A stretch of 64,000 nucleotides of DNA from Alphaproteobacteria bacterium (GTDB lineage: Bacteria > Pseudomonadota > Alphaproteobacteria > Rhodobacterales > Rhodobacteraceae): NCBI GenBank assembly GCA_003331935.1, contig QOQE01000001.1, positions 124,001-188,000 on the forward strand, given 5' to 3'. Positions 40,433 to 46,739 of this stretch are shown one piece after another (position 1 is the first letter of the stretch; every line of letters begins with the position of its first letter). The position numbers and the translations under genes are program-made. Under the pieces are notes generated by a model that saw only the letters and a list, made by a program, of their open reading frames with translations, ran no database searches and was not told where the DNA came from.

Positions 40433-42745
40433 ATGCCCTCATTTTCGAGTTCTCTTGAAAAAAGCATACATAGTGCTCTTAAGTTAGCAAATGAAAGGAA
40501 TCATGAGCTCGCAACACTAGAACATCTACTTCTTGCGTTGCTTGATGAAAAAGACGCATCAAATGTATTAAATGCGTGTAATGTCAATGTAGACTTGCTC
40601 AGGAATAACATAGAGAATTTTCTAAATAATGAACTAGGCAGTTTAGTTACCGAAGTCGAAGGCAGCGAAGCAGTTCCGACAACTGGGTTTCAAAGAGTAA
40701 TCCAACGCGCTGCAATTCACGTACAGAGTTCTGGAAGGAATGAAGTAACAGGAGCTAATGTTTTGGTAGCGATTTTTGCAGAAAGAGAAAGTCACGCAGC
40801 CTTTTTTCTCCAAGAGCAAGAAATGACTAGGTACGATGCAGTGAATTTCATTGCACACGGTGTATCGAAAAATCCCAACTTTGAAGAAACGAAGGAGCTA
40901 GAAGAGGGAGATCAAAAGGATGCTACTGATAACCCTAATCATAACGCTGAAAAGGAAACTGCTCTCTCAAAATACTGTGTTAACCTTAATGAAAAATCCA
41001 AGAAAGGTGATATAGATCCGCTGATAGGAAGAAATTTAGAGGTTGAAAGATGCATCCAGATTCTTTGCAGAAGAAGAAAAAATAACCCCATACTCGTAGG
41101 AGACCCTGGCGTTGGTAAGACTGCTATTGCTGAAGGTTTAGCTCGAAAGGTGATTTCTGATCAAACACCAGAAATACTTAAAGGATCAACGATTTACTCT
41201 TTAGATATGGGAGCCCTTTTAGCTGGCACACGTTACAGAGGTGATTTTGAAGAGCGTCTAAAGTTAGTTATGAAAGAATTAGAGAAAGACCCAAAGGCAG
41301 TTCTGTTTATCGATGAAATACACACAGTTATCGGGGCAGGAGCAACTTCTGGAGGAGCTATGGATGCTTCAAATCTGTTAAAGCCCTCACTTCAAAGCGG
41401 CACACTAAGGTGCATGGGATCAACAACCTACAAAGAGTATAGAAACCACTTTGAAAAAGATAGAGCTTTAGCTAGGCGCTTTCAAAAAATTGATGTAGTT
41501 GAACCAACCACAGAGGATAGTATTAAAATATTGAATGGACTAAAACAGTATTTTGAAGACCATCATAAAATAAAATACTCTGCTGATTGCTTGAAAACTG
41601 CTGTTGAACTTGCAAATAAATATATCCATGACAGAAAACTTCCCGACAAAGCTATTGATGTTATTGATGAAGCAGGTGCGGCTCAAAGTCTACTGCCACC
41701 CAGTAAAAAGAAGAAAGTAATAGGTGTAAAAGAGATTGAAGAGATAATTGCAAAAATTGCAAGAATACCCTCTAAGCGAATTTCAAAAAATGACTCAGAA
41801 GTATTAAAAGATTTAGAGAAATCGCTTAAAAGGGTTGTGTTTGGACAGGAAACCGCTATTGAAATGCTCGCTTCATCCATCAAGCTATCGAGAGCGGGAT
41901 TGCGTGAGCCAGAAAAACCAATCGGATGCTACCTGTTTGCTGGCCCTACAGGAGTTGGAAAAACGGAGGTATGCAAACAATTAGCCGATATTTTAGGCAT
42001 TTCCATGCTGAGGTTTGATATGTCTGAGTATATGGAGAAGCATTCGGTTTCTCGACTTATTGGCGCTCCTCCAGGTTATGTGGGCTTTGATCAAGGAGGG
42101 TTGCTTACTGATGGCGTTGATCAACAACCATATTGTGTACTTTTACTGGATGAAATAGAAAAAGCTCATCCAGACGTATTTAACATTTTACTACAGGTAA
42201 TGGACCATGGAAAACTTACAGACCACAATGGCAAATCTGTTGACTTCAGAAATGTGATCCTTGTTATGACATCAAATGCAGGCGCGAGCGAGCAAGCAAA
42301 AGAGGCAATTGGATTCAATCGAACGAAAAGAGAAGGGGAAGCAGATGCAGCAATTGTCAAGATGTTCACCCCTGAGTTTAGGAACAGGTTAGATTCAGTA
42401 ATCACATTCAATTCACTATCGCTCGAGATAATTTTACAAGTTGTGGAAAAGTTTATTTTGCAACTAGAGGGGCAGCTTATCGATAGAAATGTAACGATAG
42501 AATTTTCTGAAGATACATTGAAGTGGTTGGCTGAGGAAGGCTATGACGACAAAATGGGGGCTAGACCCATATCGAGAAAAATTCAAGAGCATATTAAAAA
42601 GCCACTCTCCGAAGCATTACTTTTTGGGGAGCTGAAGAAGGGTGGTATAGTTAAATTATCAGTTAATAAAAATAACCTTGATTTAGACTTTAAGCCTATA
42701 GGCGAAAAGCCATCAAAAAAGATTAAAGCTAATATTCTTTCGTAA
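40433..42745 (+). CDS. clpA: ATP-dependent Clp protease ATP-binding subunit ClpA
   Basis: AAA+ unfoldase that feeds substrates to ClpP. The 770-residue product has the N-terminal double Clp repeat (1-~145), first AAA+ module with GDPGVGKTAIAEGLARK (~222) and FIDEIHTVIGAGA, second with GPTGVGKTEVCKQLA (~505) and LLLDEIEKAHPD, and the ClpP-docking IGF tripeptide (EAIGFNRTK, ~625). It lacks the ClpB middle coiled coil, so it is ClpA not ClpB. ATG with AAAGGATT upstream. The adaptor gene clpS, usually just upstream, is missing here. Ends directly against the OmpA-like gene. Confidence 0.96.
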   Translation: MPSFSSSLEKSIHSALKLANERNHELATLEHLLLALLDEKDASNVLNACNVNVDLLRNNIENFLNNELGSLVTEVEGSEAVPTTGFQRVIQRAAIHVQSSGRNEVTGANVLVAIFAERESHAAFFLQEQEMTRYDAVNFIAHGVSKNPNFEETKELEEGDQKDATDNPNHNAEKETALSKYCVNLNEKSKKGDIDPLIGRNLEVERCIQILCRRRKNNPILVGDPGVGKTAIAEGLARKVISDQTPEILKGSTIYSLDMGALLAGTRYRGDFEERLKLVMKELEKDPKAVLFIDEIHTVIGAGATSGGAMDASNLLKPSLQSGTLRCMGSTTYKEYRNHFEKDRALARRFQKIDVVEPTTEDSIKILNGLKQYFEDHHKIKYSADCLKTAVELANKYIHDRKLPDKAIDVIDEAGAAQSLLPPSKKKKVIGVKEIEEIIAKIARIPSKRISKNDSEVLKDLEKSLKRVVFGQETAIEMLASSIKLSRAGLREPEKPIGCYLFAGPTGVGKTEVCKQLADILGISMLRFDMSEYMEKHSVSRLIGAPPGYVGFDQGGLLTDGVDQQPYCVLLLDEIEKAHPDVFNILLQVMDHGKLTDHNGKSVDFRNVILVMTSNAGASEQAKEAIGFNRTKREGEADAAIVKMFTPEFRNRLDSVITFNSLSLEIILQVVEKFILQLEGQLIDRNVTIEFSEDTLKWLAEEGYDDKMGARPISRKIQEHIKKPLSEALLFGELKKGGIVKLSVNKNNLDLDFKPIGEKPSKKIKANILS

Positions 42746-44428
42746 TTATCTTTCAGTTAGCTTAAATTCTATCCGCCTGTTTTTAGCGAGAGCCTCCTTT
42801 GAATTGGAAAACGAGATCGGTTGATGCTCTCCAAAACCTGCCGCAGACATTCTCTTTGGGTCGATTTTGTGGGTGTTGATCATATATTTAACTACAGACA
42901 GAGACCTAGCTTGGCTAAGTTCCCAATTATCGTTAAAAACACTGTTCTGACTCACAGGTGTTTTATCTGTATGTCCATCTACTCTAAGAACCCAATTTAT
43001 ATCTTTTGGAATCTTCTTTGAGATATCTTTAAGGACATTTGATATGGTATCTAACTGCACTTTGCCTGCCATCCCTATATCAGCAGAACCTCTATCAAAT
43101 AACACTTCAGACGAAAAAACAAACCTGTCGCCAACAACATCAATGCCTTCAATGTCTCCAAGGATTTTTTTTAACCTCCCAAAAAAGACAGATCTATATT
43201 CCCGAAGGTTCTTTGTTTCGGTTTCTAATCTCTTTCGTTCCTTTTCCTCTAGCTGCGCTCTTATTTTTTGTTCAGATGCAACTTTTGCTAAGGCAGCATT
43301 TAATTTTGCCCCTAGTGATTTGATTTCTACATTGTTAGAAAAATCCTTTTCGATGGTTGCATCTAATATTCCTGTTAATTCCTTTAATCTTTCTTTAAGC
43401 GAATTTGTTTGGAGTGTTAGATTAGCAACCTCTTGCATTGAGGCTTTGGCTTTTTCTTCTTGAACGCTCAACCTCAGCCTGGCTTCCCTTAGCGCTAGAT
43501 CCTTTTCTTTCAGGATATTGTCATTCCCTATCAGTTTTTTCTCAAATTTAGCAGCCTGTTCTTTTAGAATTTTTTGAGCCTCTCTTGAGGCTGCTAGAAG
43601 TTTAAGGGTCTCAAGCGCTTTTTTTCTCTCCTCCTCAATGGTGAGAGTTATAAGAACTAACTCTTCTTTCTTCTCCAAGAGATTTTCTTGAAGATTGCGT
43701 ATTGCATACTGTTCCATGACCCGCTGCTTCTCTGCATCAGTCAAATCTTCATTAATCGCTTTCATCTTTTCTTTGACCATACTAAGCTCGCTTGCCTTTT
43801 TCTCGGTTAAGTTTTCTAGCGACTGATTTTCCAATTTAAGTTTTTGTATTAATTGCTCCAAAGCTTCATTGGATGCTGCCATCATTTTTTCTTTAGAAAT
43901 TTTCTGGCTGATGGTATCTCTCGCAGCAGCTAAAGCCAGCTCCGCTGCTTCTCTATTGGAAACCTCTTTAGATATTTTTTTTTTCTCAATTTTTAGTTTT
44001 TCATCAAGCTCCAAACGTTTAGCTATCAAAGATGCAACTTGGGATTTAAAATCTGTTATTTTTGTTTCTGCGACTTTCATATCATTTCGTAATCTTGTAA
44101 GTAGATTAATTTTTTCTTGTAACTCAGTTTCCTGAGCAGTCAGTTGTGCCTTTTGCTTGTTCGATAAAGTTTGCAACTTTGACTTCTCACTTTTCAGCAT
44201 ACCTAGCTCATTTTTTAAATCTTCAAGGTTATTTCCCAGTTGCGAAAGCTCTGTCTGTTGCTCATCAAGCTCAATTTTTTGAGAGGAGATCGTGTCCCTT
44301 AAAACTGACTGTACTATCATAAATATTGACAGAATAAACATTAAGATAAGCAATATGGCTGTCATAGCATCTACAAATCCAGGCCATATATTTGCAGTGA
44401 ATCGTTCTCCACTCCTTCTGGTAAGCAT
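42746..44428 (-). CDS. OmpA/MotB-domain protein with long coiled coil (stator-like B subunit)
   Basis: 560 residues in three parts. Residues ~12-40 form one membrane helix starting WPGFVDAMTAILLILMF, whose D20 sits where MotB, ExbD and ZorB carry the proton-handling aspartate. About 45-430 is an almost unbroken heptad-rich coiled coil of Lys, Glu and Leu. About 435-560 is an OmpA-type peptidoglycan-binding domain (LFDRGSADI; VDGHTDKTPV; NWELSQARSLSVVKYM; AAGFGEHQPI; NRRIEFKL). It follows the ExbB-like gene after 2 bp. The likely role is the cell-wall-anchored half of an ion-driven inner-membrane motor; what it drives is unknown. Confidence 0.85.
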   Translation of the reverse strand: MLTRRSGERFTANIWPGFVDAMTAILLILMFILSIFMIVQSVLRDTISSQKIELDEQQTELSQLGNNLEDLKNELGMLKSEKSKLQTLSNKQKAQLTAQETELQEKINLLTRLRNDMKVAETKITDFKSQVASLIAKRLELDEKLKIEKKKISKEVSNREAAELALAAARDTISQKISKEKMMAASNEALEQLIQKLKLENQSLENLTEKKASELSMVKEKMKAINEDLTDAEKQRVMEQYAIRNLQENLLEKKEELVLITLTIEEERKKALETLKLLAASREAQKILKEQAAKFEKKLIGNDNILKEKDLALREARLRLSVQEEKAKASMQEVANLTLQTNSLKERLKELTGILDATIEKDFSNNVEIKSLGAKLNAALAKVASEQKIRAQLEEKERKRLETETKNLREYRSVFFGRLKKILGDIEGIDVVGDRFVFSSEVLFDRGSADIGMAGKVQLDTISNVLKDISKKIPKDINWVLRVDGHTDKTPVSQNSVFNDNWELSQARSLSVVKYMINTHKIDPKRMSAAGFGEHQPISFSNSKEALAKNRRIEFKLTER

Positions 44429-44430
44429 AG

Positions 44431-45654
44431 TTAACCCTTGCTGCTATTTCTTGCCAAATCAATCATAGCCTTACTGAGTTGAGCGAGATCTGACCTTAGT
44501 TCCGAGAGGGCATCTTTACGTGCATTGGCCAATTCATCAACCAGTCTTGACAGTTGCACCTCAATATTCCTAAGACGGGTCAAGTTTTCTAAATCTCTAG
44601 TACTTCTCTCCCCAAACTGCCCTTTTATCAAGGTATTCAAATCTTGTTGCGAAGAAACCAACTTTTCGATGGAATTTTTATCAAATCCATCAATGCTACT
44701 CACTGTTTTTGAACTTGTGAGCTGAGAACCTGCGACCTCTTCAATAGCCTTAGATAGGCTATTTATCTGATTGTTTGTTGTAGAGTTATTCTCAATCGAT
44801 TTTTCAAACATTTGTCCAAGTTCTGATATTTGTGCTCCTATCGCAGATATAATTGGACTAGTGTTGCCATTGCTGGTTGATTCATCCACGTTTTCGGAAT
44901 CTCCAAAAATTCCTATACTTGTGAAGGAAGATAGCCATTCTTCTAATTGCATATAGAATCTGTTTTGACCATGGTTGGCAAACAGCTCTAAGAGACCAAC
45001 CACCAAACTACCGGCCAACCCAAGAAGAGATGAGGCAAATGCGGTACCCATACCACCAAGTTGACCTTCCAAACCTGCCATCAAGTTATCAAATACCTCT
45101 ATTCCAGTTTGACCTTCTTTCGGTACTAAACTTTTTATAGTGTTTACAACCTCAGGAACAGTGATCGCGAGGCCATAAAAGGTGCCTAGAAGACCTAAGA
45201 AAATGAGCAGATTTATAACATAACGCGTTATATCTCTTGCCTCGTTTAATCTAGTTGCCACCGAATCCAGTATCGAATTTAAAGAACTTGAAGTTAAGAT
45301 GGTTTTCGATTTTTTTCCCTTTAAAAGAGATGCTAGGGGTATCAATAATCTAGGTGGATCTGAAAATTCGTGTCCCGGCCTATCAAGAGCGAAGTTTTCA
45401 ACCCAATTGACAGCCGCTATTATTACAAAGATTTGCCAAAAACAACATAGTATCCCAAAAAAGAAAACTGTTAAAATTATCCCATTTAAATATGGAGAAG
45501 ATAGGAAAATAGGTGCAACCGAGGGAAACATGAAGTAACTCCCTACCATCACAAGCAATAATGAAGTCAGCATTAGTACAACCTGCTGTATAGGTTGACT
45601 AAACCCCTGTGTTTCTGCTCTTATTAACTTGAGCGACTGTTTTTTCTTTGCCAA
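44431..45654 (-). CDS. MotA/TolQ/ExbB-type proton channel protein (stator-like A subunit)
   Basis: 407 residues. Four hydrophobic segments (~24-45, 56-82, 143-166, 203-232). The third and fourth carry the family pattern: LLGTFYGLAITV and GGMGTAFASSLLGLAGSL. A polar cytoplasmic loop separates helices 2 and 3. The last ~170 residues are hydrophilic and mostly helical, ending in a coiled coil. This fits a pentameric ion channel around dimeric OmpA-like partners encoded 2 bp downstream. The start is a TTG with GGA six bases ahead. Pairs like this recur in alphaproteobacterial genomes annotated only as biopolymer transporter plus peptidoglycan-binding protein. Confidence 0.82.
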   Translation of the reverse strand: MAKKKQSLKLIRAETQGFSQPIQQVVLMLTSLLLVMVGSYFMFPSVAPIFLSSPYLNGIILTVFFFGILCCFWQIFVIIAAVNWVENFALDRPGHEFSDPPRLLIPLASLLKGKKSKTILTSSSLNSILDSVATRLNEARDITRYVINLLIFLGLLGTFYGLAITVPEVVNTIKSLVPKEGQTGIEVFDNLMAGLEGQLGGMGTAFASSLLGLAGSLVVGLLELFANHGQNRFYMQLEEWLSSFTSIGIFGDSENVDESTSNGNTSPIISAIGAQISELGQMFEKSIENNSTTNNQINSLSKAIEEVAGSQLTSSKTVSSIDGFDKNSIEKLVSSQQDLNTLIKGQFGERSTRDLENLTRLRNIEVQLSRLVDELANARKDALSELRSDLAQLSKAMIDLARNSSKG

Positions 45655-45758: not shown

Positions 45759-46739
45759 ATGAGAAAAAAAATATATACCTTTACATTTATCCTATTTGTG
45801 ATCTCAACTTCATTATACTTAGTATGGGCGATAGCTGCAAATATTCAAAAAGAAGCTTTTAAGCAGTATTTAAGTGAGGTATGGTCTATTGATTTAAATG
45901 ATGAGAACATCACGACTGATGGGTTCCCTTTTAAATTCGGAATAAAGGTATCAAATTTCCGATCTCCGCTTAAGCATATTCCACTTAGTTTGCAATTCAT
46001 AAAACTAGAAATCGTAAAATTAATTTACAATTTTTCTGATGTTATTCTTTTTGTAGAGAAACCCATGGTTGCCAGTACAGACTATCCAAAATTCAATAGC
46101 TCAGCGAATAAATTGAAGATCAGCATATCTGACAGACCTTTTTCAGGCAGATTTAAGTTGATCACTGAACAAGAAGATTGGCAAATATCCGACGACAGAA
46201 ACATTAAAAGGTTTGAGGCGAAGGAAGTAATTTTTGCGCTAAAGGATGTGGACAGAATGACACTAGATTTTTATCTTGCAGCAAATAATTTAAATTCTAG
46301 TTTTTTGAAAAAAATTCAGGCGATGGACTCTGAGACATCAAACAAACTAATTCTTAAAGGTACAGTTTCAAATAGCTATGTAAGTAACCCCAAGGCCCCC
46401 TATCAGGCAATCAAGCTTGAATCGATCAATTTGGAGCAGATAGATATTGATATTGGGGTTTTAAAGCTACGTTGTGATGATATGGTTTTTTTAAACTTGA
46501 TAGAACTGACTACTGAAGGCAATATTGATTGTCTATTAAGACTCAGCTCTAAGGACATCTCACGAATAAAAACTGATACTGGAGCACTCAAAAGCATCAT
46601 AAATTTGATTAACTTAATCCTAATCATCAAAGACCCGGCAAATACCGGTGAACCACAAATAGTTCCCGTTAAGCTTAGCTTAGATAAAGGATTGTTTTTT
46701 ATAAATGCAATTCCCATTTACCATTTTAAAAAATACTAG
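45759..46739 (+). CDS. DUF2125 family protein
   Basis: 326 residues with an N-terminal hydrophobic anchor (~5-28), so periplasmic and attached to the inner membrane. It has the family's GFPFKFGIKVSNFRSP segment and a repeated beta pattern reminiscent of AsmA-like lipid-handling proteins. Function unknown. ATG start without a clear ribosome site; a weak TTGAAG / TATGTA pair is seen in the 104 bp upstream. Ends four bases inside the convergent prephenate dehydrogenase gene, a neighbour it keeps in other alphaproteobacteria. Confidence 0.85.
   Translation: MRKKIYTFTFILFVISTSLYLVWAIAANIQKEAFKQYLSEVWSIDLNDENITTDGFPFKFGIKVSNFRSPLKHIPLSLQFIKLEIVKLIYNFSDVILFVEKPMVASTDYPKFNSSANKLKISISDRPFSGRFKLITEQEDWQISDDRNIKRFEAKEVIFALKDVDRMTLDFYLAANNLNSSFLKKIQAMDSETSNKLILKGTVSNSYVSNPKAPYQAIKLESINLEQIDIDIGVLKLRCDDMVFLNLIELTTEGNIDCLLRLSSKDISRIKTDTGALKSIINLINLILIIKDPANTGEPQIVPVKLSLDKGLFFINAIPIYHFKKY

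Follow-up and report, generated by a model that had tools for sequence, protein, structure and literature searches.

Two adjacent genes in the genome of a marine alphaproteobacterium specify a channel protein of the MotA/ExbB superfamily and a wall-anchored partner, and they raise the question of what task such an apparatus performs in this cell. The genes, here called A and B, lie in a window of 64,000 nucleotides, which is the whole stretch of DNA that was analysed. To our knowledge, a job has been established for only a small number of such ion-driven motors, namely the flagellar stators and the Tol, Ton, gliding/type IX secretion, Zorya and Sii systems. Our literature search found no paper on the function or phenotype of the A-B family, which is represented in the NCBIfam collection by PRK09039. 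The function is directly testable, as A and B should be simple to delete in laboratory alphaproteobacteria.

Results

The A-B locus and its host

An earlier note on this DNA had described two genes 2 bp apart that encode an ExbB/MotA-type channel and an OmpA-containing partner. Both open reading frames were recovered at the coordinates given there, with B 2 bp downstream of A. The features of the locus are as follows.

40433-42745, plus strand: clpA, convergent, its end directly abutting B
42746-44428, minus strand: gene B, 560 aa, wall-anchored partner
42776-43102, minus strand: peptidoglycan-binding OmpA domain (residues 443-551 of B), which includes GHTD (D488) and R508
44369-44371, minus strand: Asp20 codon of B, putative ion-carrying residue in the motif WPGFVD
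44431-45654, minus strand: gene A, 407 aa, MotA/ExbB-superfamily channel subunit
44434-44634, minus strand: conserved tail end of A, residues 341-407
45759-46739: DUF2125 gene, upstream of A and divergent from it
Protein A, within residues of about 19-42, 54-91, 123-175 and 204-226: four predicted membrane helices (low-confidence single-chain model, pLDDT 45)
Protein A, residues ~227-407: cytoplasmic helical tail of ~180 residues

Because clpA converges on the end of B and the DUF2125 gene is divergent upstream, A and B constitute a stand-alone two-gene transcription unit. The DUF2125 gene is followed by tyrA and then by a hisC-like aminotransferase gene. Reading of the neighbouring genes detected no flagellar, Tol, Ton or zor-like gene adjacent to the pair, which bears out the earlier note on this point. 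The start codon of A is TTG, and that of its near relatives is ATG. The host genome comprises 1.56 Mb in 28 contigs and is about 90% complete; the nearest named relatives of A come from marine single-cell genomes and metagenome-assembled genomes called Alphaproteobacteria or Rhodobacteraceae.

Properties of the channel subunit and its partner

The match of A to the Pfam MotA_ExbB family was below threshold (15.8 bits, with a cut-off of 22.9), and PDB sequence searches with A returned only chance coiled-coil matches. The tail of about 170 residues claimed in the earlier note is present, but it is somewhat longer than was thought. Its last part bears the class-wide consensus ..HLRNiD..L.RL.E...GR....EIR.EIrLLARTIAA.A.., and, among close relatives, the dN/dS of A was 0.016 in the channel, 0.137 in the middle of the tail (residues 251-340) and 0.037 in residues 341-407. 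Given the difference between the last two values, the tail end is a conserved module. Little tail is present in a few A proteins among the 51 (those of 243, 301 and 328 aa), so that a tail is not an absolute requirement in every lineage.

B is composed of a short cytoplasmic N-terminus, a membrane helix with D20, a long coiled coil and an OmpA domain, the last of which was detected by Pfam (1.2e-17) and also matches MotB structures. B is a member of the NCBIfam PRK09039 family (PRK09039.1-1, an equivalog named 'peptidoglycan -binding protein' to which no function is assigned), as its score against NF006542 was 504.8 bits (5e-151) and the curated cut-off is 388 bits. The AlphaFold model of B (pLDDT 71.5) has helices at residues 15-183, 187-353 and 370-423 followed by an OmpA fold; it confirms the helix and the OmpA domain only. 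A helix rises by 0.15 nm per residue, and a single straight rod made of the modelled periplasmic helices would thus be some 50 nm long, which exceeds the normal periplasmic width. We therefore infer that the two helix breaks are turns, or that the coil lies along the wall. Across the class, B is between 327 and 728 aa long and varies mostly in the coil, with a weak and non-significant co-variation of the lengths of A and B (Spearman 0.26, p 0.06).

The Asp that the earlier note had singled out in the membrane helix of B does lie within the sequence W-P-G-F-V-D, and a check of its conservation found it invariant in 51/51 homologues, as are T158 and S209 of A. The wall-binding motif of B is GHTD in 49 of the 51, the other two having GHSD and GHAD, so that its Asp is retained in all. 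These residues bear on the possibility that there is no motor, and that B passively tethers the wall while A acts as its scaffold in the membrane. Such a role would suit a protein whose length varies more than two-fold, and it is homology that points to motor activity of A-B. However, the invariant residues, the Asp of the B helix and the Thr and Ser of A, are those of ion flow, for which a tether has no need, and we consider a tether unlikely.

Distribution and selection

A-B is a core system found in about two thirds of Alphaproteobacteria. Among 289 alphaproteobacterial genomes, 197 contain A and 198 contain B; both were present in 193, A only in 4 and B only in 5. The pair is near-universal in the window's own family. 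The earlier note had spoken of an uncharacterised motor, and this is apt in that the family has no assigned function; it is no isolated curiosity, however, given its frequency and the place of B in PRK09039. A survey of neighbours, also proposed in that note, showed that A and B are adjacent in all 51 loci read, and the median gap between them is 5 bp in the 47 alphaproteobacterial loci among these.

The dN/dS of B among close relatives was 0.021 in the membrane part, 0.091 in the coil and 0.044 in the OmpA part; for comparison, that of clpA was 0.020. A and B are thus under strong purifying selection, and they are intact and adjacent in every relative, far beyond what chance would allow. The DUF2125 gene, which is also near the A-B pair in several relatives, is fast evolving (dN/dS 0.277).

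In a wider sample of the phylum the pair was also found in a few genomes outside the class. Four loci from other Pseudomonadota (L146-L149) carry A-B with no C (see below) alongside, and their channels form a group (100/93) within the A clade, which could reflect one transfer event or an older common origin.

Relationship of A to known channels

In a tree of 68 sequences, the A proteins formed one clade (82/97), TolQ/ExbB another (100/98) and MotA a third (98/98). In the best tree, A shared a clade (98/91) with ZorA, two Sii-like channels and the channels of Zorya III. Profile-profile comparison ranked Zorya III ZorA first (2e-12), followed by TolQ (1e-6), ZorA of type I (3e-5) and MotA (8e-4). 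By these sequence comparisons, A is firmly placed outside TolQ/ExbB and outside MotA, which upholds the view of the earlier note that the pair is a motor-type system separate from TolQR, ExbBD and MotAB. That note had likened the layout to MotAB, TolQR and ZorAB; Zorya is probably among the nearest relatives, and so are the Sii-type channels, which its reader had not considered. The nearest kin of A are probably the Zor and Sii types. This affinity is favoured rather than proven, because AU tests rejected neither A as the sister of TolQ/ExbB (p 0.44) nor A as the sister of MotA (p 0.24).

We examined the host genome for other systems of this kind. Contig 14 carries tolQ, tolR, tolA, tolB, pal and cpoB in succession, the names being assigned from gene order, TolQ and OmpA-domain matches and reading-frame content. 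This TolQ, on another contig than A-B, is the one TolQ/ExbB-type gene of the genome, and no separate ExbB was detected. MotA_N (PF20560) was not among the Pfam matches of A and had none in the host genome. A-B and Tol are therefore the only systems of this kind that were detected in this streamlined genome, in which the absences may partly be an assembly gap, as the genome is about 90% complete. We rejected the idea that A-B is a copy of TolQR or ExbBD, since B carries an OmpA domain, A is outside the TolQ/ExbB clade and the true TolQ is elsewhere in the host. We also rejected a relic of a flagellar stator, given that A has no MotA_N and that MotA was its weakest profile match.

Gene C and the order of genes in other Alphaproteobacteria

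Outside the window's family, the usual gene order is thiE, efp, inositol monophosphatase, C, A and B, with a convergent ABC transporter gene. C is directly upstream of A in 26/47 loci read (seen in L057-L091), at a median distance of 60 bp and as close as 2-3 bp. The C protein has a signal peptide without a lipobox, a proline-rich middle and an OmpA-like end, and all three C proteins tested matched Pfam OmpA. Its consensus reads AYA in place of GHTD, so that the wall-binding Asp of OmpA domains is replaced. In Sinorhizobium meliloti, where the gene order is that typical of most Alphaproteobacteria, the pair is annotated side by side as 'MotA/TolQ/ExbB proton channel family protein' and 'peptidoglycan -binding protein'. 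One record of 3.7 Mb that is labelled S. meliloti pSymB (L166, CP090106.1) carries purE, rpmE and thiE; it is chromosome-like and probably mislabelled.

C was not found in the window's family, where searches gave OmpA-level matches only. Conversely, in six genomes of four families (L160-L165) the flanking block is intact and C is kept, where it adjoins the ABC gene or closes the block, but A and B are cleanly missing. These genomes indicate that A and B were lost together and that C is independent of them, and the natural losses offer ready-made comparisons for the role of A-B. C as an obligatory third part was rejected on the grounds of its absence in the window's family and its retention without A and B elsewhere.

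One could nevertheless envisage a Tol-like system that works outward, in which the ion gradient would move the coil of B, together with C where present, and so pull or organise the outer membrane or wall. C is the only closely linked related-looking gene in most Alphaproteobacteria and it is secreted, which points to an output outward rather than inward. The loss of its wall-binding Asp suggests that its ligand may not be peptidoglycan, and the great length of the B coil also speaks for this reading. Set against this are the separability of C, which is absent in the window's family and retained in at least four families without A/B, the failure of A to join TolQ in the best tree, and the Tol-Pal operon that the host already has. 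We regard an outward system as possible but doubtful.

Sii-type channels and type I secretion

The Salmonella SiiAB proteins have been reported to be a proton channel controlling SiiE retention (PMC6272769). Loci L150 and L152 contain an A-like channel and a B-like protein among HlyD, type I ABC and TolC/RTX genes; we call these pairs Sii-like on the strength of their gene context and a review, and not by comparison with the Salmonella sequences. No library names the two pairs (L150:4140-12264 and L152:472-10217), their best matches being sub-threshold ones to ZorA and PRK09039. Their B-like partners have WPGYVDA where B has WPGFVDA, giving the common membrane motif WPG[FY]VDA. Both the shared motif and the setting of these pairs among secretion genes, together with the reported action of SiiAB, would be consistent with A-B being an accessory channel of the Sii type, with a type I secretion system under its control. 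The window's host speaks against it: secretion genes are absent near A-B, the HlyD adaptor had no match in the host genome although 13/14 control genomes matched at the same threshold, and the OmpA match of B has no equivalent detected in the Sii-like partners of L150 and L152. A role as a Sii-type secretion accessory is unlikely in this host, and as a general account of the pair we consider it very unlikely.

Comparison with Zorya loci

Cryo-EM of ZorAB revealed a 5:2 complex with an Asp placed against a Ser/Thr ring and a bundled C-terminal ZorA tail, and Zorya needs the ZorA tail, wall binding and ion flow (PMC11890865). A matched the PADLOC ZorA1 profile at 1.4e-11 and B matched ZorB3 at 1.3e-22, mostly through the OmpA part. 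These matches, and the Zorya III ZorA at the head of the profile ranking, would be expected if A-B were the sensor of a Zorya-type phage-defence system with effectors encoded elsewhere. Membership in a Zorya locus was rejected, as none of the PADLOC Zorya effectors (zorC/D/E/F/G) was found among the A-B neighbours, which are housekeeping genes. True Zorya is patchy, with ZorA1 in 4/299 genomes, whereas A-B is near-universal in the window's family, and in other families the pair lies within a conserved housekeeping block. A defence sensor is therefore very unlikely; A-B is best read as a vertically inherited housekeeping system and not a defence island.

A search for DUF3348 gave no match in the host genome, but as the control genomes gave none either, this result carries no information. 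The Zorya III label of L154 is backed by adjacent DUF3348 and DUF2894 genes and that of L151 by DUF2894.

Discussion

We propose that A-B is a housekeeping, Zor-like, ion-driven A5:B2 motor of the inner membrane that passes force or wall status inward through the A tail, a reading to which we assign a probability of roughly 0.5. The gene pair and its domains, the invariance of the motor residues, the conservation and the separate clade are observations; the 5:2 stoichiometry, the ion flow and the rotation are inferred by homology with ZorAB. In such a motor, five A subunits would surround two B subunits in the inner membrane, and ions would cross between A and B via Asp20 of B, which would face a polar ring including Thr158 and Ser209 of A. 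B would serve as a fixed axle, its OmpA domain holding the peptidoglycan through the long coiled coil. Around this axle the ring of A subunits would turn together with the bundled tail in the cytoplasm, or else ring and tail would be gated. The conserved last ~65 residues of the A tail would most probably bind a partner in the cytoplasm or the inner membrane, through which the tail could pass force or wall status inward, as the ZorA tail does in Zorya. It is the conservation of the tail end that suggests a docked partner inside, and no gene for a cytoplasmic partner is encoded near A-B in any lineage read; the inward output and its target are conjectural. Whether A-B is a wall-sensing rotary housekeeping transmitter from the stock of the ZorAB and Sii motors, with a cytoplasmic partner at the tail end and the secreted partner C in many lineages, is a tentative suggestion that we are more inclined to doubt than to accept.

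The pair has been kept even in a streamlined marine genome with no detected MotA-type or separate ExbB-type motor. If A-B is a motor as proposed, it would exhibit a Zor-like chassis serving ordinary cell life, a counterpart of the Zorya chassis. A 2025 mBio survey stated that an OmpA-type domain for wall binding is absent from the partners outside flagellar motors (PMC12505986); A-B is an exception to this statement, since B is non-flagellar yet bears OmpA.

The likeness of A-B to the known systems is partial in each case. With TolQ-TolR and ExbB-ExbD, A shares the channel fold of the superfamily, the conserved Thr and the Gly-rich helices; unlike them, it forms a separate clade and has four predicted membrane helices plus a tail, and its partner has an OmpA domain. 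The combination of a channel and an Asp-bearing, OmpA-anchored partner is that of flagellar MotA-MotB (and also of PomAB), but A lacks MotA_N and the MotA profile matched it least. The Sii-type pairs have a channel with a tail that falls in the same joint clade as A, and they differ in the OmpA domain. ZorAB of Zorya types I-III resembles A-B in having a channel with a long C-terminal tail and a single-helix partner with an Asp and an OmpA domain. The A tail is much shorter than that of Zorya, however (A is ~400 aa, compared with 675-958 aa), the partners of Zorya III measure 208-225 aa and do not approach the length that B owes to the extended coiled coil linking the membrane to its OmpA domain, and, in contrast to Zorya, A-B is a core, vertically inherited system that stands without effector genes.
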